Shown: positions 1,162 through 10,197 of the stretch, in pieces
How positions within the stretch are numbered: the first letter of the stretch is position 1
Layout of the letters: each line of letters starts with the position of its first letter
DNA from: Candidatus Omnitrophota bacterium
Lineage (GTDB): Bacteria; Omnitrophota; Gorgyraeia; Tantalellales; Tantalellaceae
DNA: 11,080 bases
Assembly: GCA_018814505.1 (NCBI GenBank)
Contig: JAHIZQ010000134.1
Location: 1 to 11,080 of the forward strand
Direction of reading: 5' to 3'
The notes under the pieces: model-generated
What the model saw: the letters and a program-made list of their open reading frames with translations, nothing else
Databases searched by the model: none
What the model was told of the DNA's origin: nothing
Position numbers and translations under genes: made by a program

Positions 1162-2007
1162 TTATATTGCACTCTTTTGTCTTGGCGAGATTCTGGGCAA
1201 CACCCATTCTCGCATATCTTTAAATACTTTTTCTTTTTCCTTTTCTATTGAAAGAGCATGATGCAATCCAGGATAGAAAATTAGTTTTTTGTCTTTTACT
1301 TTCAATCCACGAAAAATAACTTTGCTTATTTTAGGAGTTGTCAGCGAGTCTTTCCCCGCGAGTAAAAACAATACCGGTATTTTTATCTTATTTTTTCGGA
1401 TTAGACTGTTCATCTGCGCTGAAAATATACAACTTAACAGTTTCGCTGACGCAAACCTATGTTCCCTATCATCCGTATCCATTACTTCCCGGTAATCCTT
1501 ATCCCGTGTACACATTTCTGCATTAAAAGGCATTTCAAATTGTTCACGCGGTTTAAAAAACATCGCCTTAAATATTTTTATGTATTTTCCGATTGAAAAC
1601 TTTAATACACTTAAAAACGCAGGCGAAAGACAAATTAATCCGTCAAAAAGATCCGGTTTTCGTAAAACTATCTGAAACGCGATTAAAGCGCCCATACTTT
1701 CGCCAATTATAAAAATCTTTTTTCCTGGGCACTCTGCCCGCGCCGTATCACAAATTCGATAAATGCCTTCATAATACACATCAAATGAATCGACATGCCC
1801 TCTGAGTCCTTCGGTTTCACCAAACCCTTTAAGCTCAATCGCGTAAGATGAAATATTATTTTTTATAAAAAAATCTGCCAAAAAATCCCACCTCGCGCTT
1901 TGCGCGCCAAGTCCGTGTACCAAAACAAACACGGCTTTGGGGTCAGGGGCAAGCCATTTTCTATACATAACCGCGTATTTTTTATCCGTTATTATCGCTC
2001 TCATCAT
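1162..2007 (-). CDS. Alpha/beta hydrolase, monoacylglycerol lipase / lysophospholipase type (Hydrolase_4)
   Basis: Serine hydrolase of the monoacylglycerol lipase/lysophospholipase group, 281 residues, a normal family length. Seen directly: the oxyanion-hole strand VLVHGLGAQSARWD (28-41), the nucleophile elbow GESMG with Ser104, the acid in AGKDSLTTP (Asp220) and the base in YPGLHHALSIE (His250). The segment ELKGFGETEGLRGHVDSF (58-75) is typical of bacterial monoglyceride lipases. There is no signal peptide, so it should act in the cytoplasm. It lies 9 bp after the regulator stop and 25 bp before glpK, so a role in releasing glycerol from monoacylglycerol or a glycerophospholipid-derived ester is a natural inference; the substrate is not shown by the sequence. 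Two adjacent ATGs are present: the GAGG at 2010-2013 is only 2 bases from the first and 5 bases from the second (2004), so translation may begin at 2004. Confidence 0.9.
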   Translation of the reverse strand: MMRAIITDKKYAVMYRKWLAPDPKAVFVLVHGLGAQSARWDFLADFFIKNNISSYAIELKGFGETEGLRGHVDSFDVYYEGIYRICDTARAECPGKKIFIIGESMGALIAFQIVLRKPDLFDGLICLSPAFLSVLKFSIGKYIKIFKAMFFKPREQFEMPFNAEMCTRDKDYREVMDTDDREHRFASAKLLSCIFSAQMNSLIRKNKIKIPVLFLLAGKDSLTTPKISKVIFRGLKVKDKKLIFYPGLHHALSIEKEKEKVFKDMREWVLPRISPRQKSAI

Positions 2008-2016
2008 AACCTCTTT

Positions 2017-3066
2017 CTATATGCTAAGTTGCTCTTTTGCCCTTTTTATCATAAAACTTACATTTTCATCGGCATTTTCAAAAGTAATATCTATTCCTGG
2101 ATAGCGCAATTTCCACACACGAAACACTTCATCCGCAAATCCCTGGCCAACAAGTTTTACGTCTTTAAAATCCAAAATAATCGTTTTAAACTTATCTAGT
2201 CCCGTCAACACACGCCGCGCCTGTGATCTTGAAATATATTCTGTGCCTTGTTTATAAAGTTTTATCGTAACCTTTGTTTTGCTAAATCCAAGGTCATCCT
2301 CTGTATATTGTTTAAAAATATCTTCTATTTTTGTTTTTGAATCAAGGCTAATAGAAAATCTTATTTTTGTGCCAAAAGTCTCCCTAGCATCTTTAACCAG
2401 CACTTCATTCATAAAATTATCAAAAATTACTTTCTTACATGAACTCTGTATTGAAAAAAAACTTGCTACTTTGGATGTAAAAAAAATGCCTTCCCCGCTA
2501 TGTTTTTCCGGTATCGTTGTTAGTTTGCCCTTTAGGAGATCTTGAATCGCTGACATTTCATTTGTGAGGCTTTTCTTTTTCATTATGTTATTAAAAATAC
2601 CCACACCTTTATCAGTCACAGAAAAATTAATACTATTCTCATTTTTCTCAATTACTATTTCAATTTCATCCGACTGCGAATGATCTATTGCGTTATTTAC
2701 CATTTCCAAAAACGCGTAACCTACGATAGTCGAAATATTCGGTACAAGATTAAGAAAAATTCCGTTATTTTTTTTTATTTCTTTAAACACAAAATCTTCG
2801 TCAATATTGTCGTTTTTAAATACGCGCCGTATTCTTAAAATATTTTCCTTTGCCGCGACTAAAGCAGATTCCGTAGCAAAAATATACTTGGCCTTATTGG
2901 CTTTACCTATAAGTAAAATCTTGCCGTCATTTTTCAGCTCCCGAAAAGCCCTGTTAACATACGTACGAGAAAAACCTGTAAGCATTACAATATCAGCAGA
3001 CTTAACTTCGCCATTTTTCTTTAATACCCTTAAAATTAAACCGCATATATCCACTTTTGTCTCCAT
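2017..3066 (-). CDS. Winged-helix / GHKL ATPase / STAS-like (DUF4325) fusion regulator
   Basis: Predicted one-protein transcription regulator, 349 residues from the ATG at 3066. Order of domains: a winged helix at about 5-63 (helix-turn-helix in SADIVMLTGFSRTYVNRAFREL, about 23-44), a linker, a GHKL/Bergerat ATPase at about 100-240, and a DUF4325 STAS-like domain at about 262-340 (SRSQARRVL, then ILDFKDVKLVGQGFADEVFRVW). ATP-binding motifs are intact: N box EMVNNAIDHS with Glu121 and Asn125, G1 box DKGVGIF (152-158), G2 box HSGEGIFF (189-196). The domain trio recalls the anti-sigma kinase and anti-anti-sigma partners of SpoIIAB/SpoIIAA, here joined to DNA binding. It heads the lipase-glpK operon and sits beneath an operator array, so autoregulation is likely. 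Start choice: a TTG at 3084 precedes the predicted transcript start; ATG 3066 has no clear ribosome site; GTG 3054 has GGAG 6 bases upstream and is a real alternative. Confidence 0.85.
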   Translation of the reverse strand: METKVDICGLILRVLKKNGEVKSADIVMLTGFSRTYVNRAFRELKNDGKILLIGKANKAKYIFATESALVAAKENILRIRRVFKNDNIDEDFVFKEIKKNNGIFLNLVPNISTIVGYAFLEMVNNAIDHSQSDEIEIVIEKNENSINFSVTDKGVGIFNNIMKKKSLTNEMSAIQDLLKGKLTTIPEKHSGEGIFFTSKVASFFSIQSSCKKVIFDNFMNEVLVKDARETFGTKIRFSISLDSKTKIEDIFKQYTEDDLGFSKTKVTIKLYKQGTEYISRSQARRVLTGLDKFKTIILDFKDVKLVGQGFADEVFRVWKLRYPGIDITFENADENVSFMIKRAKEQLSI

Positions 3067-3076
3067 TTTTAGTTTA

Positions 3077-3087
3077 GTTGACAACTT
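3077..3087. promoter_or_regulatory. Operator unit S1 (AGTTGACAACT) over the transcription start
   Basis: An 11-bp perfect dyad, AGTTG-A-CAACT. Together with its flanks (3075-3089) it forms a 15-bp perfect inverted repeat with 3106-3120. It overlaps the predicted start of transcription of the regulator operon. The consensus over six units in this intergenic region is AGTTGNMAACT. The likely ligand is the winged-helix regulator encoded just downstream; that is inferred from position only. Confidence 0.65.
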
Positions 3088-3088
3088 T

Positions 3089-3117
3089 AGTATATATTAA
3101 AAATTTAAAGTTGTCAA
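3089..3117 (-). promoter_or_regulatory. Sigma70-type promoter of the regulator-lipase-glpK operon
   Basis: Reading the minus strand, TTGACA (3117-3112) is followed by a 17-base spacer and TATACT (3094-3089). This is a perfect -35, the ideal spacing, and a -10 with one mismatch. The predicted start of transcription is near 3082, which leaves only about 16 bases before the ATG at 3066. One operator unit (3109-3119) covers the -35 and another (3077-3087) covers the start point, so binding of a protein there should block RNA polymerase. Confidence 0.8.
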
Positions 3118-3130
3118 CTAGTTGTAAACT
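3104..3130. repeat. 27-bp direct repeat, copy 1: tandem operator units S2+S3 over the -35
   Basis: This 27-bp stretch is identical to 3204-3230, exactly 100 bp away. It contains two 11-bp units set head to tail, AGTTGTCAACT (3109-3119) and AGTTGTAAACT (3120-3130), whose centres are 11 bp apart, about one helical turn. The junction creates the palindrome CAACTAGTTG (3115-3124). S2 covers the -35 hexamer of the regulator promoter. The arrangement suggests cooperative binding of two dimers on one face of the helix. Confidence 0.75.
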
Positions 3131-3170
3131 AAAAACATCGAACTTGCTTATAGAAAATTGGGATTAAAGG

Positions 3171-3186
3171 CAACTAGTTGGCAACT
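3171..3186. promoter_or_regulatory. Operator unit S4 with palindrome CAACTAGTTG
   Basis: Position 3176-3186 reads AGTTGGCAACT, another 11-bp dyad unit, and 3171-3180 repeats the palindrome CAACTAGTTG found in both 27-bp copies. Only a degenerate half-site precedes it (CAACT at 3171-3175). Its centre lies 33 bp from that of S5, matching the 32-bp distance between S1 and S2, so S4 appears to be the distal counterpart of S1. No -10 element accompanies it. Confidence 0.55.
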
Positions 3187-3203
3187 TTTTGTTGATTTTC
3201 ATT

Positions 3204-3230
3204 TTTAAAGTTGTCAACTAGTTGTAAACT
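3204..3230. repeat. 27-bp direct repeat, copy 2: tandem operator units S5+S6
   Basis: Identical to 3104-3130, with units AGTTGTCAACT (3209-3219) and AGTTGTAAACT (3220-3230). It ends two bases before the last codon of the sixA-like gene (stop at 3233-3235). A TTGACA is present on the minus strand, as in copy 1, but the matching -10 position reads CAACAA, so this copy has no promoter of its own. It may be an upstream auxiliary operator for looping, or a roadblock to transcription arriving from the sixA side. Confidence 0.7.
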
Positions 3231-3232
3231 CT

Positions 3233-3685
3233 TTACAGTAAGTCTGGAGTCAGGTACCACTCAATACGCCATTTGTCCATATGGCCGAGACATATTATCC
3301 CTGAATTTTTAAAGGAAATAATGTCTCCTTCATCTTTTCCGCATAATAGTAATACGGTTAATTTTTTCAGAAAAGGCAAATGTCCCACAATCATTAAATC
3401 CCCTGCCAGATTTTTAATCTCGCCCGGAAACTTATCAACCGGATCATTAGGTTTTAAATCGTCTCTCTCGCGCGCATTGGAAGGCGTTACGTATTGCGAA
3501 ATTATCTGCGCGGTCTGTACAGCGCGCATTTTTTTACTAAACCACAAATTCTCAACATTTACCCTTTCCGCTTTTAAAAGCCTTGCCGCTTTCTCCGTCT
3601 GCGCCTTGCCTTCTTCGCTTAAAGGTTTTTGCGGGTCTACGTCTTCGGAAACTGAAAGCCCATGCTGAATTAAATAAAGTTTCAT
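3233..3685 (-). CDS. sixA: SixA-like phosphohistidine phosphatase (histidine phosphatase superfamily)
   Basis: Small cytoplasmic phosphatase of the phosphoglycerate mutase-like fold, 150 residues, the usual SixA length. The family removes phosphate from histidine on phosphotransfer domains. Seen: the N-terminal LYLIQHG with nucleophile His8, the motif PLSEEGKAQTEKAARLL (21-37), SKKMRAVQTAQI (50-61) with Arg54, LKPNDPV (77-83) and VGHLPFL (100-106) with His102. The residue before His8 is Gln7 where most members have Arg (RHG); I recall QHG from annotated SixA homologues in several uncultured phyla, so it need not be inactive. The strong site GGGAGG lies just before the ATG. It follows the isoaspartate methyltransferase by 35 bp and is probably cotranscribed. 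The protein partner is unknown. Confidence 0.85.
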   Translation of the reverse strand: MKLYLIQHGLSVSEDVDPQKPLSEEGKAQTEKAARLLKAERVNVENLWFSKKMRAVQTAQIISQYVTPSNARERDDLKPNDPVDKFPGEIKNLAGDLMIVGHLPFLKKLTVLLLCGKDEGDIISFKNSGIICLGHMDKWRIEWYLTPDLL

Positions 3686-3720
3686 TTTCCCCTCCCTGAA
3701 ATAAAATATTTACCTGGAAT

Positions 3721-4440
3721 TTATTCCGACTTAACCATCGGCACAAACCTAACTGGCAGTAAAACTTGTTGTTTAGTTCCTTCTTCGGTACGCTCTATCA
3801 AGTACAGTTGCTGAAACGATGTGCCCACCGGGACTATCATTTTCCCTCCGATTTTGAGCTGTTCAATTAGTTCTTCCGGAATTTCCGGCGGCGCGGCAGT
3901 TACAATAATCGCGTCAAAGGGCGCGTATTCGGGAAGCCCCTTATATCCATCGGCACACTCCACCGTTACATTATTATAGCCTAACAATTTTAGTCTTTTT
4001 TTAGCGGCTTCGGCAAGAGGTGCTAAAATTTCAATCGTATAAACTTCCTTAACTATTTCCGCTAATACGGCCGCCTGGTACCCGCACCCTGTGCCGATTT
4101 CAAGGACACGCATATTTTTCTGTGGTTTAATCTGCTCCGTCATGTAAGCAACAATGTATGGTTGAGAAATTGTCTGGCCATACCCTATAGGAAGAGGCGA
4201 GTCAAGATAGGCGTTTTCTCTAAATGCCTGTGGAACAAACAAGTGCCGGTCAACTTTTTCCATAGCGCTAAGCACATTAGTCGCATTAACACCTCTCGCC
4301 TTTATTTGCATCTCCACCATTATCTTCTTTTTAGCGGAAACATTATCACGATCATTTGAAAAAGATTTTTCAGCTGACATAAAAAAACAAAACAGGCACA
4401 CCACAATTATTGAAAATTTTATCTCAACTTGCCACTTCAA
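3721..4440 (-). CDS. pcm: Protein-L-isoaspartate O-methyltransferase with N-terminal signal or anchor
   Basis: SAM-dependent methyltransferase that starts the repair of L-isoaspartyl residues in aged proteins; 239 residues against about 210 for the common cytoplasmic form. Seen: MVEMQIKARGV (41-51), DRHLFVP (64-70), PLPIGYGQTISQPYIVAYM (82-100), and the SAM loop VLEIGTGCGYQAA (112-124); later GGKMIVPVG. The extra N-terminus has a basic start (MKWQVEIK), a hydrophobic stretch at 9-23 and a polar tail, like a signal peptide or membrane anchor. The TTG start at 4440 is the only one that includes it: an in-frame stop lies at 4462-4464, and AGG sits 5 bases before the TTG. ATG 4380 and ATG 4320 (residue 41) would give cytoplasmic forms but have weaker ribosome sites. 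Identity is firm, localisation is open. Confidence 0.93.
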   Translation of the reverse strand: MKWQVEIKFSIIVVCLFCFFMSAEKSFSNDRDNVSAKKKIMVEMQIKARGVNATNVLSAMEKVDRHLFVPQAFRENAYLDSPLPIGYGQTISQPYIVAYMTEQIKPQKNMRVLEIGTGCGYQAAVLAEIVKEVYTIEILAPLAEAAKKRLKLLGYNNVTVECADGYKGLPEYAPFDAIIVTAAPPEIPEELIEQLKIGGKMIVPVGTSFQQLYLIERTEEGTKQQVLLPVRFVPMVKSE

Positions 4441-5095: not shown

Positions 5096-6922
5096 TTAAT
5101 CGAGTTCAAATTCAAATACTTCCTCAAGCCGAAGACGCGCCGAATCTTGTTTAGTTTTATCTATAACAAAATTTTCCATTACAAGATAATCCATGTTTGT
5201 CCGCATGAAGCACTTGTACGCGTCTTCTGGCGTACAAACAATAGGTTCACCGCGTACGTTAAAAGAAGTGTTTATAACTAATGGACATCCATGATTTTCA
5301 TAAAGCGCGTTTATCATATCGTAATAACGCGAATTATCTTCACGTTTTACCGTTTGTACACGCGCGGAATAATCAACATGTGTTATTGCCGGAATACGCG
5401 ACCTTTTAACCTTTAGCTTCTCAAGCCCGATTAACCCAACTTGATCATTTTGGATTCTCTTCTCCTTTGAAACCGGCGCGACGAGTAGCATATATGGACT
5501 TTCGCCGATTAAATCAAAATATTCCGCGCTTTTTTCCGCGATAATACTTGGCGCGAAAGGCCTGAAGGACTCTCTAAACTTTATCTTCCTATTAATAATT
5601 GACTGCATTTTTTCTGACCTAGGGTCGCCTAAAATGCTTCTTGCCCCAAGCGCACGCGGCCCAAATTCCATTTTCCCCTGGAACCAACCGATAACTTTCT
5701 GCGCCGCGATAAGGTCTGCCGTTATTTTGGCAACTTTTGAAGCAGAAAGCTTTTCATAAGGTATATTGTTCCGAATAAGATAAGATTCAATATGTTCATC
5801 ATCGAAAGAAGGCCCTAAAAGACTAGCTCTTTGGCGGTCTTTTCCCTTCGTAACAACACGTTCTTTTCCTAAATATTCATGCCACGCGACTAACGCGGCG
5901 CCTATCGCACCGCCCGCATCCGAAGAAGCGGGTTGTATCCAAATATTATCAAACGGGCCTTCTCGCAACACCTTACCGTTAGCAACGCAGTTTAGCGCGA
6001 CCCCTCCAGCCAAACACAAATTATTACAACCTGTTTCCTTATAGACATGTTTTGCCATGTTCATGACAGCCATCTCCGTAACTACCTGCACGGATTTAGC
6101 TAAATCCATATGCTTTTGGCTTAATTCGCTTTCGCGCCTGCGCGGCGCCTCGCCAAAAAGGCGATTAAACTTTTTGTTAGTCATTGTCATCCCCGAGCAA
6201 TAATTAAAATATTTCATATCGAGTTTAAAAGATCCATCGGGTTTCAAGTCTATTAAATTATTCAAAATTAAATCAACATATTCAGGTTCTCCATATGGAG
6301 CAAGCCCCATAAGCTTATATTCACCCGAATTAACTTTAAACCCGCAATAATACGTAAAAGCCGAATATAATAATCCCAAAGAATGGGGAAACTTTATTTC
6401 TTGAAAAAGTTCTATTTTTTTGCCTTCCCCCTTACCAAAACTAACTGTTGCCCATTCTCCGACACCGTCTACTGTTAAAACAGCCGCAGTGTCAAACGGA
6501 GACGGATAAAAGGCGCTTGCCGCGTGCGAATGATGATGTTCCGGAAAAATAAACTCGCCATCATACCGTAAAACGTCTCTTATATTTTCTTTAATAAAGA
6601 GTTTTTGTTTAATCCATGGCGGAATCGCTGAAAGAAAAGACCTCACTCCAAAGGGGGCATAAGCTAAATGAGTTTCCAAGATACGTTCAAATTTCAAAAA
6701 AGGTTTATCATAAAAAGCGACCAAACTAACGTTTTTAATGGTAATCCCGGCTGATTTAAGGCAATATTTCACGGCATTTTCAGGAAATGACGGATCATGT
6801 TTCTTGCGCGTAAAACGCTCTTCCTGTACTGCGGCAACAAGTTCACCATCACACGTAAGACACGCGGCCGCATCATGATAAAACGCTGAAATTCCCAATA
6901 TATATGTTTTTTCTACACCCAT
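5096..6922 (-). CDS. Carbamoyltransferase, NodU/CmcH/TobZ (SxtI-like) family
   Basis: O-carbamoyltransferase of 608 residues, full family length. These enzymes make carbamoyl-adenylate from carbamoyl phosphate and ATP in an N-terminal Kae1-like domain and hand the carbamoyl group to a hydroxyl of a sugar or small molecule. Seen: GISAFYHDAAACL (10-22), EERFTRKKHD (34-43), the metal-binding HHHSHAASAFY (129-139), LTVDGVGEW (149-157), SGEYKLMGLAPYG (199-211), LAGGVALNCVANGK (304-317), PASSDAGGAIGAAL (331-344), and in the C-terminal domain FGPRALGARSILGDPR (420-435), FRPFAPSI, NTSFNVRGEPIVCTPEDA (551-568). The start ATG 6922 has AGAGG 13 bases upstream, a long spacing, but no better start was found. 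It leads an operon with SxtJ-like and DUF5989 genes. The acceptor cannot be read from the sequence; no glycan or toxin gene is adjacent. Confidence 0.95.
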   Translation of the reverse strand: MGVEKTYILGISAFYHDAAACLTCDGELVAAVQEERFTRKKHDPSFPENAVKYCLKSAGITIKNVSLVAFYDKPFLKFERILETHLAYAPFGVRSFLSAIPPWIKQKLFIKENIRDVLRYDGEFIFPEHHHSHAASAFYPSPFDTAAVLTVDGVGEWATVSFGKGEGKKIELFQEIKFPHSLGLLYSAFTYYCGFKVNSGEYKLMGLAPYGEPEYVDLILNNLIDLKPDGSFKLDMKYFNYCSGMTMTNKKFNRLFGEAPRRRESELSQKHMDLAKSVQVVTEMAVMNMAKHVYKETGCNNLCLAGGVALNCVANGKVLREGPFDNIWIQPASSDAGGAIGAALVAWHEYLGKERVVTKGKDRQRASLLGPSFDDEHIESYLIRNNIPYEKLSASKVAKITADLIAAQKVIGWFQGKMEFGPRALGARSILGDPRSEKMQSIINRKIKFRESFRPFAPSIIAEKSAEYFDLIGESPYMLLVAPVSKEKRIQNDQVGLIGLEKLKVKRSRIPAITHVDYSARVQTVKREDNSRYYDMINALYENHGCPLVINTSFNVRGEPIVCTPEDAYKCFMRTNMDYLVMENFVIDKTKQDSARLRLEEVFEFELD

Positions 6923-7609: not shown

Positions 7610-9265
7610 ATGAATCTTATTTATTATACTTTAAAACTCTTGGGCTTAAAAGCAAAAGCCTTTGAAAAAAAGACAAAAAATCCTGTCAAAGCACAGGCAA
7701 AAATACTTCGTGAACTGCTTTCGCGTAACCGCAAGACAGAATACGGATTAAAACATGGATTTTCCTCAATAAAATCCGCGGACGAATACCGTAACCGCGT
7801 ACCTTTAACAAATTACGAATCTCTTCGTCCGCTCATGGACAGAATAACAAATGGCGAACGAAATATCCTTACGAAAGATAACCCGATTTTTTTCAGCATT
7901 ACAAGCGGCACAACCGGAAAACCAAAACTTGTTCCCGTAACAAAATATTCCCAGAAAAAGAATTCACATGTCCTAAATTTATCCGCCTATTATGTCTGTC
8001 GAGATCATCCAAAAATCACCACAGGAAAAATTCTTGCCATAGTAAGCCCTGAAACCGTGGGCTACACCCCGGGTGGTATCCTTTTTGGCGCTGAAAGCGG
8101 ACACGCCTATAAGCATCTTCCACCATCGATAAAAAGTGCTTATTCTCTACCCTATGAAGTTTTTGAAATTGACGATTACAACTCGCGTTACTATACAATA
8201 CTACGCATCGCGATGGAACATAATGTCTCCATTATAGCCACCATGACGCCTAGCACAATAATTCTTCTCTGTCGCCTAATAGAAACTGTGCAGGATGACC
8301 TTATCGAAGACATTCAAAACGGAACTCTCAAGAAAAGTTTGGATATACCGCCACACATCCGTAAAGCCATAGAAACATCCCTGCGCCCCAACCCGAAAAG
8401 ATCGGATGAACTTAAAAAAATCCTAAAAGAAAAAAATGTTCTTTTGCCAAAAGATTTCTGGCCACGCCTTCAAGTAATAGAATGCTGGAAACGCGGTTCA
8501 ATGGAATTATATTTGGATAAATTTCCAAAATACTTTGGGAATATACCTCTAAGGGATTTCGGATATTTTTCCAGCGAAATGCGTAGTTCCATCCCGATAA
8601 AAGACGAAAACGCGGAAGGAATTTTAGCAATTACCACAAATTTTTATGAATTTATACCACGTGAAGACGCGGGCATAAAAAAACAAAGGGTTCTTTTATG
8701 CGATCAATTGGAATTGGGTCAGGAATACTTTGTAGTCCTGACAACCCCTGGCGGCCTCTACCGGTACAACATTGATGACCTGATTCGAGTTAACGGTTTT
8801 TTCAATAAAACCCCGCTAATCGAATTTGTGCAAAAAGGCGTTAATGTTACTTCCGCAACAGGTGAAAAAGTTTATGAATCACAAATAGTTACAGCAGTAA
8901 AAAATGCAACTGCAACTTGTGATCTATCTTTAGAACTTTTCGTGGCCTCTCTGGAACTAGTAAATTCAGCGAGATATGCCTTTTTAGTAGAATTCCATGG
9001 AGATCCGGTACGGGAAAAGAAAAGAGAACTCTTACGGATTATTGAAAAAGAACTGCGCCTTATTAACGAAGAATATGATTTTAATAGAACGGCGCAGGAA
9101 CTGGCGCACCCTGTTTTAAAAGTGCTATGTAAAGGCAGTTTTGAAAAGTTTAGACTACAAAAGATAAAAAACGGCTCACATGACAGTCAATTTAAGATTC
9201 CACATCTCACTTCTGACATAAATTTTCATAAAAACTTTGATATTGTTGAAGAAATCTTAGACTAA
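7610..9265 (+). CDS. GH3-family acyl-adenylating enzyme (acyl-acid amido synthetase-like)
   Basis: Member of the GH3 family (ANL adenylating superfamily), 551 residues, full length. Plant members adenylate indole-3-acetic or jasmonic acid and join it to an amino acid; bacterial members are common but their substrates are mostly unknown. Seen: KSADEYRNRVPLTNYESLRP (55-74), the ATP loop SITSGTTGKPKLVPVTK (96-112), FGYFSSEM (317-324), TNFYEFIP (343-350), YRYNIDDLIRV (384-394), and the C-terminal cap hinge ATGEKVYESQ (416-425). No signal peptide, so cytoplasmic. Ribosome site GGAAGGGA lies 4 bases before the ATG. It is the only plus-strand gene here and stands alone; it converges with the ureohydrolase-like gene, with 8 bp between stop codons. 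A small carboxylic acid and an amine are the likely substrates, unidentified. Confidence 0.92.
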   Translation: MNLIYYTLKLLGLKAKAFEKKTKNPVKAQAKILRELLSRNRKTEYGLKHGFSSIKSADEYRNRVPLTNYESLRPLMDRITNGERNILTKDNPIFFSITSGTTGKPKLVPVTKYSQKKNSHVLNLSAYYVCRDHPKITTGKILAIVSPETVGYTPGGILFGAESGHAYKHLPPSIKSAYSLPYEVFEIDDYNSRYYTILRIAMEHNVSIIATMTPSTIILLCRLIETVQDDLIEDIQNGTLKKSLDIPPHIRKAIETSLRPNPKRSDELKKILKEKNVLLPKDFWPRLQVIECWKRGSMELYLDKFPKYFGNIPLRDFGYFSSEMRSSIPIKDENAEGILAITTNFYEFIPREDAGIKKQRVLLCDQLELGQEYFVVLTTPGGLYRYNIDDLIRVNGFFNKTPLIEFVQKGVNVTSATGEKVYESQIVTAVKNATATCDLSLELFVASLELVNSARYAFLVEFHGDPVREKKRELLRIIEKELRLINEEYDFNRTAQELAHPVLKVLCKGSFEKFRLQKIKNGSHDSQFKIPHLTSDINFHKNFDIVEEILD

Positions 9266-9273
9266 TAACTTTA

Positions 9274-10197
9274 TTACGCCAAGATTTTCATAATTTCCAT
9301 ATTTGTATTTTCATTTATTCTAGTAATATCAGCCTCACTTACAGCTTTTGCTGAAAAGTTTTTTGGATGATCAAGATGTGAAATAACTTTTTTGATTATA
9401 CCGCGAATAAAAACTTTTGAATAATCTCCCGTAACGTTAACGCCGACTATATCAGTTTCTTGTTTTATAATTTTTAACATTAATAAAAGATTCTCCAAAG
9501 AAAGCCCGCCGTCCTCCCAATTTGTGAGTGAAACTTGTTTTTCCAGACAATCTTTATCAATGGATATATAGACACGTTTTGTGGGGAAAGACATAATAAT
9601 ACTGTGTAAAAACTCTGTTAAATTCTTATCTTTCAGTTCATTCCAATAAATTTTAGTAAAAATTCCTCGCTTTTCCGTTATCATTGATTTATTTTTCGGA
9701 ATGTTCCGAAAAAACGCTGTTGAGGGTTTTTGCGCCCACGGATATATTTCTATTCTATTATTTTGAAGCTCAGCATAGTCTCCGGCCTGAACCGAAAAAC
9801 TTGATGCCTCCCGGGAACCCATACCAAGCAAAACGACTTTTGCCACATTCGCACTTTTAAGTGTTTCCGCGACCCATGACCCACAACTTAACCATGGCGG
9901 AAAAACACACCAATCCGGATGGAAATCAAAATTAATAACTGTTACCGGTTCCGTAAACTCCTTTATAAGAATACTGCTTATATGGTGAAAATCGCCTGAG
10001 CCAAGAAAAGTAACGGAATTTTTAGAAGAAGAACTCGTACGGAGCGTGATTTCTTTTTTAGTTTTTTTATTTATCCAAAAACGCGCTGAGCCAGCTAAGC
10101 GCTTGAAATCAATAACTTCCGCGTCATATTTCTCAAGAAGCTTTATTTGTTTCGTAACGCTATCATCAAAATTTAACACACGTATTCTATTATTCAT
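9274..10197 (-). CDS. Divergent ureohydrolase (arginase/agmatinase fold) protein
   Basis: A 307-residue protein with the arginase-fold metal motifs in order but with unusual spelling: GSGDFHH (66-72) for GGDHS, NFDFHPDW (89-96) for D-A-H-x-D, SIDKDCLE (212-219) for SxDxDxxDP, and EDGGLSLENL (228-237) for EPGGLTxxE. Likely metal ligands are His71 or His72, Asp91, His93, Asp95, Asp214 and Asp216. Family enzymes hydrolyse C-N bonds of guanidino or formimino compounds with two Mn ions; here the substrate is unknown, and the DFHPD spelling also recalls the UPF0489 group. No signal peptide. The start ATG overlaps the stop of the upstream DUF4334 gene as ATGA, and there is no ribosome site of its own, so it is translationally coupled. 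Confidence 0.7.
   Translation of the reverse strand: MNNRIRVLNFDDSVTKQIKLLEKYDAEVIDFKRLAGSARFWINKKTKKEITLRTSSSSKNSVTFLGSGDFHHISSILIKEFTEPVTVINFDFHPDWCVFPPWLSCGSWVAETLKSANVAKVVLLGMGSREASSFSVQAGDYAELQNNRIEIYPWAQKPSTAFFRNIPKNKSMITEKRGIFTKIYWNELKDKNLTEFLHSIIMSFPTKRVYISIDKDCLEKQVSLTNWEDGGLSLENLLLMLKIIKQETDIVGVNVTGDYSKVFIRGIIKKVISHLDHPKNFSAKAVSEADITRINENTNMEIMKILA

Follow-up and report, generated by a model that had tools for sequence, protein, structure and literature searches.

A paired array of palindromic units upstream of a winged-helix/GHKL/DUF4325 gene of an Omnitrophota bacterium, the predicted operator of an autoregulatory repressor

Six 11-bp units upstream of the gene at 2017-3054, on the minus strand of an 11,080-nucleotide stretch from a Candidatus Omnitrophota bacterium (contig JAHIZQ010000134.1, analysed whole and called the window below), very probably form the operator of an autoregulatory repressor that this gene encodes. 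The protein would control its own gene through the array, a reading supported by the comparable sites that many relatives carry at the same place and by the covariation of the letters of those sites with the DNA-reading part of the protein. The units, their geometry, their overlap with a promoter, comparable sites at this gene in three lineages, the covariation with the recognition helix and a recurrent second module were read from the sequences; binding, a repressing and not an activating effect, contact of the modules with each other and the nature of the signal are what we infer from them.

In the proposed mechanism, the protein would bind the palindromic GTT-N3-AAC units through its N-terminal winged helix, and units occupied at about -43, -32 and +1 would block RNA polymerase and keep its own transcription low, perhaps together with transcription of the hydrolase gene that follows. 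The distal module of three units lacks a promoter and would serve as an auxiliary operator that strengthens repression; the proteins bound at the two modules would most likely contact each other. The protein would leave the DNA on a signal received via its SpoIIAB-like ATPase and STAS-like domains.

The array and its promoter

Features of the locus are collected in Table 1. An earlier note on the window had described six units of consensus AGTTGNMAACT in two halves, spaced 32 and 11 bp in the first and 33 and 11 bp in the second. All six units exist; the first is centred at 3081 rather than 3082 (the others at 3114, 3125, 3181, 3214 and 3225), and the first half has exactly the 33/11 spacing of the second. 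The separation of the halves, put at 99-100 bp, was refined to exactly 100 bp, and the 27-bp repeat (3104-3130 and 3204-3230) is exact. That the two halves lie on nearly the same helical face was not confirmed: 33 and 11 bp are about three turns and one, but 100 bp corresponds to 9.5 turns at 10.5 bp per turn (9.1 at 11 bp per turn).

Table 1. Features of the regulator locus, in window coordinates
Feature	Position	Strand	Description
alpha/beta hydrolase gene (Hydrolase_4)	1162-2007	-	directly downstream of the regulator gene
regulator gene	2017-3054	-	345 aa from GTG 3054; wHTH, SpoIIAB-like GHKL domain, STAS-like DUF4325
unit over predicted transcription start	3076-3086	-	minus strand AGTTGTCAACT, centre about +1
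promoter	3089-3117	-	TTGACA (3117-3112), 17-bp spacer, TATACT (3094-3089); 11/12 consensus letters
unit holding the -35 hexamer	3109-3119	-	minus strand AGTTGACAACT
unit directly adjoining the -35 unit, 11 bp further upstream	3120-3130	-	AGTTTACAACT
distal module, downstream unit	3176-3186	-	AGTTGCCAACT
distal module, middle unit	3209-3219	-	AGTTGACAACT; no -10 behind it
distal module, upstream unit	3220-3230	-	AGTTTACAACT; separated by 2 bp from the sixA stop codon (3235-3233)
sixA-like phosphohistidine phosphatase gene	3233-3685	-	distal module begins right after its stop codon

Proximal and distal units are identical at 10/11, 11/11 and 11/11 positions (32/33 together), as against 11/22 in the inner spacer (3087-3108 vs 3187-3208) and 6/20 and 2/20 in the flanks; the conserved part is therefore the units and their geometry. 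Searching the window for AGTTGNMAACT with at most one mismatch, both strands counted, gave 14 matches, 12 of them inside 3076-3230, against a mean of 1.52 and a maximum of 6 in 200 dinucleotide shuffles. The window's own genome (1.58 Mb in 316 contigs, 87.8% complete) holds 13 exact matches, of which 10 fall in the array and three are single, non-palindromic sites, and the reversed control gave 5. As an array, the motif occurs in this genome once, at this locus.

The earlier note had placed the proximal half over the -35 and start point of an ideally spaced promoter and had denied the distal half a -10, and both statements agree with the letters. Transcription from the minus-strand promoter is predicted to start near 3082; relative to this point the unit centres lie at about -43, -32 and +1 (proximal) and -143, -132 and -99 (distal), and the distal letters that correspond to the -10 are TCAACA, CAACAA or AACAAA. 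A possible ribosome-binding site (GGAG, 3064-3061) precedes the regulator start, and database entry P0001 (345 aa) is 100% identical to the regulator; the form from an alternative start (ATG 3066, 349 aa) was the query in most searches. The hydrolase gene is possibly co-transcribed with the regulator. Elsewhere in the window, a GH3-family protein is encoded on the plus strand (7610-9265), adjoining an arginase-family gene (9274-10197), and a carbamoyltransferase gene (5096-6922) lies upstream of the regulator. At another locus (L149, 2012-2040), a class-B array (see below) was seen 1.3 kb before the regulator, about 18 bp downstream of a carbamoyltransferase gene.

Sites on +1 are typically those of repressors. 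The units were also considered as sites of positive autoregulation, or as duplicated -35 elements to which no regulator binds, since the unit includes TTGACA or TTTACA and a plausible -10 stands in the distal module in three genomes (G008, G149 and G057). This is very unlikely: units also lie over the start point, where they read GTTGTMAAC, the window's distal module has no -10, and both the symmetry of the units and their covariation with the recognition helix would be superfluous in copies of a -35.

Sites at homologous genes and the recognition helix

Homologues were collected from genomes with a match to the regulator in the same family (8/19 genomes, E<=0.001), the phylum (24/285, E<=1e-40), the class of a Syntrophaceae MAG (16/155, E<=1e-50) and the phylum of a Parcubacteria MAG (17/286, E<=1e-50), with further relatives from four named MAG contigs. 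Upstream DNA was read for 57 homologues of three lineages, excluding three loci that lack the N-terminus (L043, L099, L101) and a weak partial match in genome G002. For the spacing and module counts below, the homologues were assigned by hand from this upstream reading to class A (n=29) or class B (n=28).

Repeated sites were found by eye just 5' of the regulator start in most of the 57 homologues (L105 and L106 were unclear), and the AGTTGNMAACT arrays that the earlier note had proposed to look for upstream of homologous regulators are indeed carried there. In nine of nine relatives at 46-56% identity (L011-L015, L018-L021), units cover the promoter of this gene, some of them degenerate (L020), and L015 is cut by the contig end; at two other loci compared, L016 has weak unit variants only and L017 none. 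Direct repeats at 11 bp occur in 62% of the 29 class-A and 43% of the 28 class-B loci, and class B also has them at 22 bp (36%) and 33 bp (50%), against an average of 1-2% in control stretches, where no single spacing exceeded 12%. A generic 9-mer repeat test, which is a weak test, gave p<=0.05 singly for 18/57 upstream regions; the mean maximum was 3.53, whereas shuffles gave 2.25 and upstream control stretches 2.19.

Module matches were scored over 104,287 bases of the 29 class-A loci on both strands, counting orientations and spacings apart. All 51 matches lie close to the gene, at most 200 bp upstream or 20 bp downstream, with none elsewhere in these bases; 24/29 loci have a match, and L014, L025, L046, L100 and L103 have none at that threshold. 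Other than the regulator itself, no neighbouring gene was shared by more than 3/18 loci, and among 13 Syntrophaceae-class loci the next gene was common only to L123-L125 and to L121-L122. As a side observation made by eye, the presumed -10 of five class-B loci (L033-L037) is so near the start codon that it would leave the regulator mRNA almost without a leader.

Site type was tallied within 130 bp by the residue at position 35, in the recognition helix, only, rather than by hand-assigned class. With A or T at this position (28 proteins), 12/28 have at least two GTTN3AAC sites and 1/28 at least two TTKACAAT sites; with Q (24 proteins), the counts are 0/24 and 17/24, and the remaining five proteins (S, V or K) have neither type. 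The GTT-N3-AAC units are palindromes and the TTKACAAT units are arranged head to tail. Covariation was calculated for 56 homologues, one of the 57 having been dropped by a length filter. Operator similarity correlated with recognition-helix similarity when the rest of the protein and the rest of the HTH were given (partial r 0.40, permutation p 0.001), compared with 0.15 for the rest of the protein when the helix was given; among the 1068 pairs under 50% identity, the values were 0.336 for the helix and -0.055 for the rest of the protein. No other evidence speaks as strongly as this covariation for reading of the sites by the neighbouring protein itself.

Second modules and array copies away from the regulator

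A second module or pair lies 55-107 bp further upstream in 10/10 class-A loci of the window's phylum, seven identified by scan, two from unit positions (L014, L022) and one by hand (L025). At 12/14 Syntrophaceae-class loci examined, a second full module lies on the regulator's own stop codon (a 13th, L097, was recognised by eye), 1091 bp from the first module in nine of the 12, and an array at the regulator stop codon was also seen in two class-B genomes, G040 and G063. Taken together, the upstream and stop-codon copies make the second module a recurring part with two positions.

The earlier note had read the duplicated array as a DNA-looping or cooperative repression switch. Recurrence of the second module suits bridging, which is plausible; the helical phase is only weakly regular, and a roadblock also fits. 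The ten inter-module distances (100, 84, 78, 107, 75, 65, 55, 64, 64 and 57 bp) gave R 0.56 with a Rayleigh p of 0.04 at 10.5 bp, 0.06 at 11 bp and 0.10 over a period scan, and 24 single-unit distances, which are not independent of one another, gave p 0.009 at 11 bp. Under the roadblock explanation, the distal module would halt transcription arriving from sixA with no bridging, and modules at the 3' end of the regulator gene in the Syntrophaceae class would likewise halt transcription there. The distal module does start 2 bp past the sixA stop codon, no terminator-like site was found in 2900-3800, and the stop-codon placement just described, in the Syntrophaceae class and in both class-B genomes, fits such a role; moreover, the next ORF is convergent at L121, L122, L126 and L129, and the stop-codon module there is therefore not the promoter of the next gene. 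At L120, L123-L125, L128, L079 and L080, however, the next ORF is co-directional, which makes a promoter role possible there. In the window's phylum the second module is upstream, at 55-107 bp, and a second set of units with equal 33/11 geometry would be unnecessary for a roadblock. We regard a pure roadblock as a serious possibility that is somewhat less probable than otherwise.

The same earlier note had presumed that the regulator encoded directly downstream binds the array. Sites at homologues and, independently, helix covariation support this operator reading, but the motif also occurs at other loci. Absence of the motif from homologues combined with recurrence at unrelated loci had been named as grounds for rejection; the homologues carry it, so the operator reading is not refuted, although recurrence elsewhere was found. 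The pair GTTGACAAC-N24-GTTGTMAAC (at most one mismatch) was present at 14 places in 12/270 genomes, eight of them (in six genomes) at the regulator and six elsewhere. Those elsewhere match without mismatch in G001, G002 and G043 and with one mismatch in G100, G178 and G260; the latter three may be chance, because the reversed control matched two genomes (G172 and G035). This strict pattern missed three class-A genomes (G008, G202 and G226). The class-B pair TTTACAAT-N12-16-TTTACAAT was found at 15 places in 9/10 genomes (control 0), 12/15 at the regulator promoter or stop codon and 3/15 away from it. The 11-mer gave 55 matches in 16 further genomes versus 80 for its reversed control, and there is therefore no genome-wide excess; its 12 strictly palindromic places in these 16 genomes comprise five at a class-A regulator, three at the G001 and G002 arrays and four single sites elsewhere.

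Several copies lie in front of other genes. In G002 (95% complete; L065 on contig C30, 6219-6271), an array directly precedes the syntenic hydrolase gene, with the neighbours kept and no regulator found; in G043 (97% complete), the zero-mismatch pair precedes an AAA_14-DUF4143 ATPase gene and no class-A regulator was found. The G001 copy (92% complete; L064, 5095-5136) is a 33-bp pair with a TTGACA/TATACT promoter before a PhdYefM/ParE toxin-antitoxin pair, in a genome in which only a divergent relative, and no class-A regulator, was found. Genome G027 has an exact 80-bp copy of the regulator promoter region upstream of another AAA_14-DUF4143 ATPase (L148), and in G057 an array lies between such an ATPase gene and the regulator. 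Family-type arrays before or beside AAA_14-DUF4143 ATPase genes were noted in three genomes (L066 5602-5643, L076 6491-6543 and L148 4684-4713). These copies would be explained either by a portable array that places other genes under the regulator or by loss or missing assembly of the regulator in some genomes.

The zero-mismatch pairs with no class-A regulator nearby, the 80-bp copy and the G057 array are the main argument that another, trans-acting regulator binds the units and that the neighbouring gene is just one of its targets; the 6/14 class-A and 3/15 class-B places away from the regulator point the same way. We judge this unlikely. The units covary with the recognition helix of the neighbouring protein, comparable sites stay by the regulator gene in three lineages, the array is unique in the window's own genome, and the 16 further genomes have no unit excess.

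The regulator family and related systems

The regulator is a single chain of wHTH, GHKL and DUF4325 domains. Its SpoIIAB-like domain agrees with the GHKL anti-sigma kinase fold in its N-box E/N, its G boxes and its fold, and the DUF4325 domain has a STAS fold. The family is very large, with 7247/8000 scored candidates at E<=0.001, and among the matches listed 120/120 carry DUF4325. No PADLOC anti-phage defence family matched the regulator at E<=0.001. A phage origin was considered and set aside: distant relatives were found on viral contigs (18 loci), but tblastn against 50,697 phage records gave no match at E<=1e-5. At four of the viral-contig loci (L131, L132, L142 and L143), repeats of TTTACAAAA or TTGACAAT closely precede the start, as judged by eye. 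The literature searched gave no function for the DUF4325 family among the matches listed.

In contrast to the SpoIIAB and RsbW anti-sigma kinases and the SpoIIAA and RsbV antagonists, both parts here sit in one chain with a DNA-binding domain. MarR-type winged-helix repressors differ in that the wHTH of the regulator is fused to GHKL and STAS-like domains, and MarR-type dimerisation helices seem to be absent from the regulator's model. Operons of the lac type combine an operator at the promoter with another that lies about 100 bp upstream or at a greater distance downstream. The present locus resembles them in its main and second operators and departs from them in its three units per module and 33/11 spacing; bridging here is hypothetical.

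The closest described system found is CapK/CapS (EMBO J 2026, PMC13373217), and among the matches listed nothing else bearing on the array was found. In that system, single-stranded DNA is reported to activate a SpoIIAB-like kinase, which phosphorylates an autorepressor of STAS-wHTH type; the two are encoded by separate genes (kinase HTH-STAS-GHKL, repressor STAS-wHTH). The CapK/CapS sites are described there as palindromic and overlapping promoters, with cooperative binding at one site type, and crystal packing as compatible with a filament whose wHTH domains line up on DNA. The two systems share a wHTH and a STAS or STAS-like domain, a SpoIIAB-like GHKL domain, palindromic promoter-overlapping sites and autoregulation (here predicted). 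They differ in that the parts form one chain here (wHTH-GHKL-STAS-like) and two proteins there, and in that GTT-N3-AAC (or TTKACAAT) units at 11/33-bp spacing here stand against TTAA half-sites with 1- or 10-bp gaps there. Furthermore, the window protein has no Ser or Thr on the second STAS helix (308-321), where the phospho-serine would be expected by a presumed residue equivalence.

No Ser or Thr was found in residues 304-321 of the window protein. Homologues have G, Q and A/G at residues 307-309, with Ser at 309 in 2/54 and 1/39. Residue 305, just before the second STAS helix, is Thr in 35/54 and 25/39 homologues and Leu in the window protein; S281, elsewhere in the STAS-like domain, is invariant (54/54 and 39/39) and could be an alternative phosphorylation target. 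Given the single chain, the other sites and the lack of Ser or Thr on the second STAS helix, the present family is not a member of the CapK/CapS system, although it may work like it in parts.

A wider reading, offered tentatively and with rather more doubt than confidence, joins these observations: sensor-repressors built as one chain (wHTH, SpoIIAB-like kinase domain, STAS-like domain) would constitute a very large family not described so far and would assemble on helically phased operator arrays, with a private operator code for each gene and, in some lineages, operator modules bracketing the gene at promoter and stop codon. The cassette would move between phyla and phages, and copying of the array before other genes (AAA_14-DUF4143 ATPase, toxin-antitoxin) would give rise to small regulons; in effect, each gene would be a self-contained, single-gene CapK/CapS. 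The very large DUF4325 family gets a testable role as an autoregulated DNA-binding switch with predictable sites. The covariation of helix and operator provides a natural recognition code, and with the paired modules bridging can be tested directly against a roadblock.
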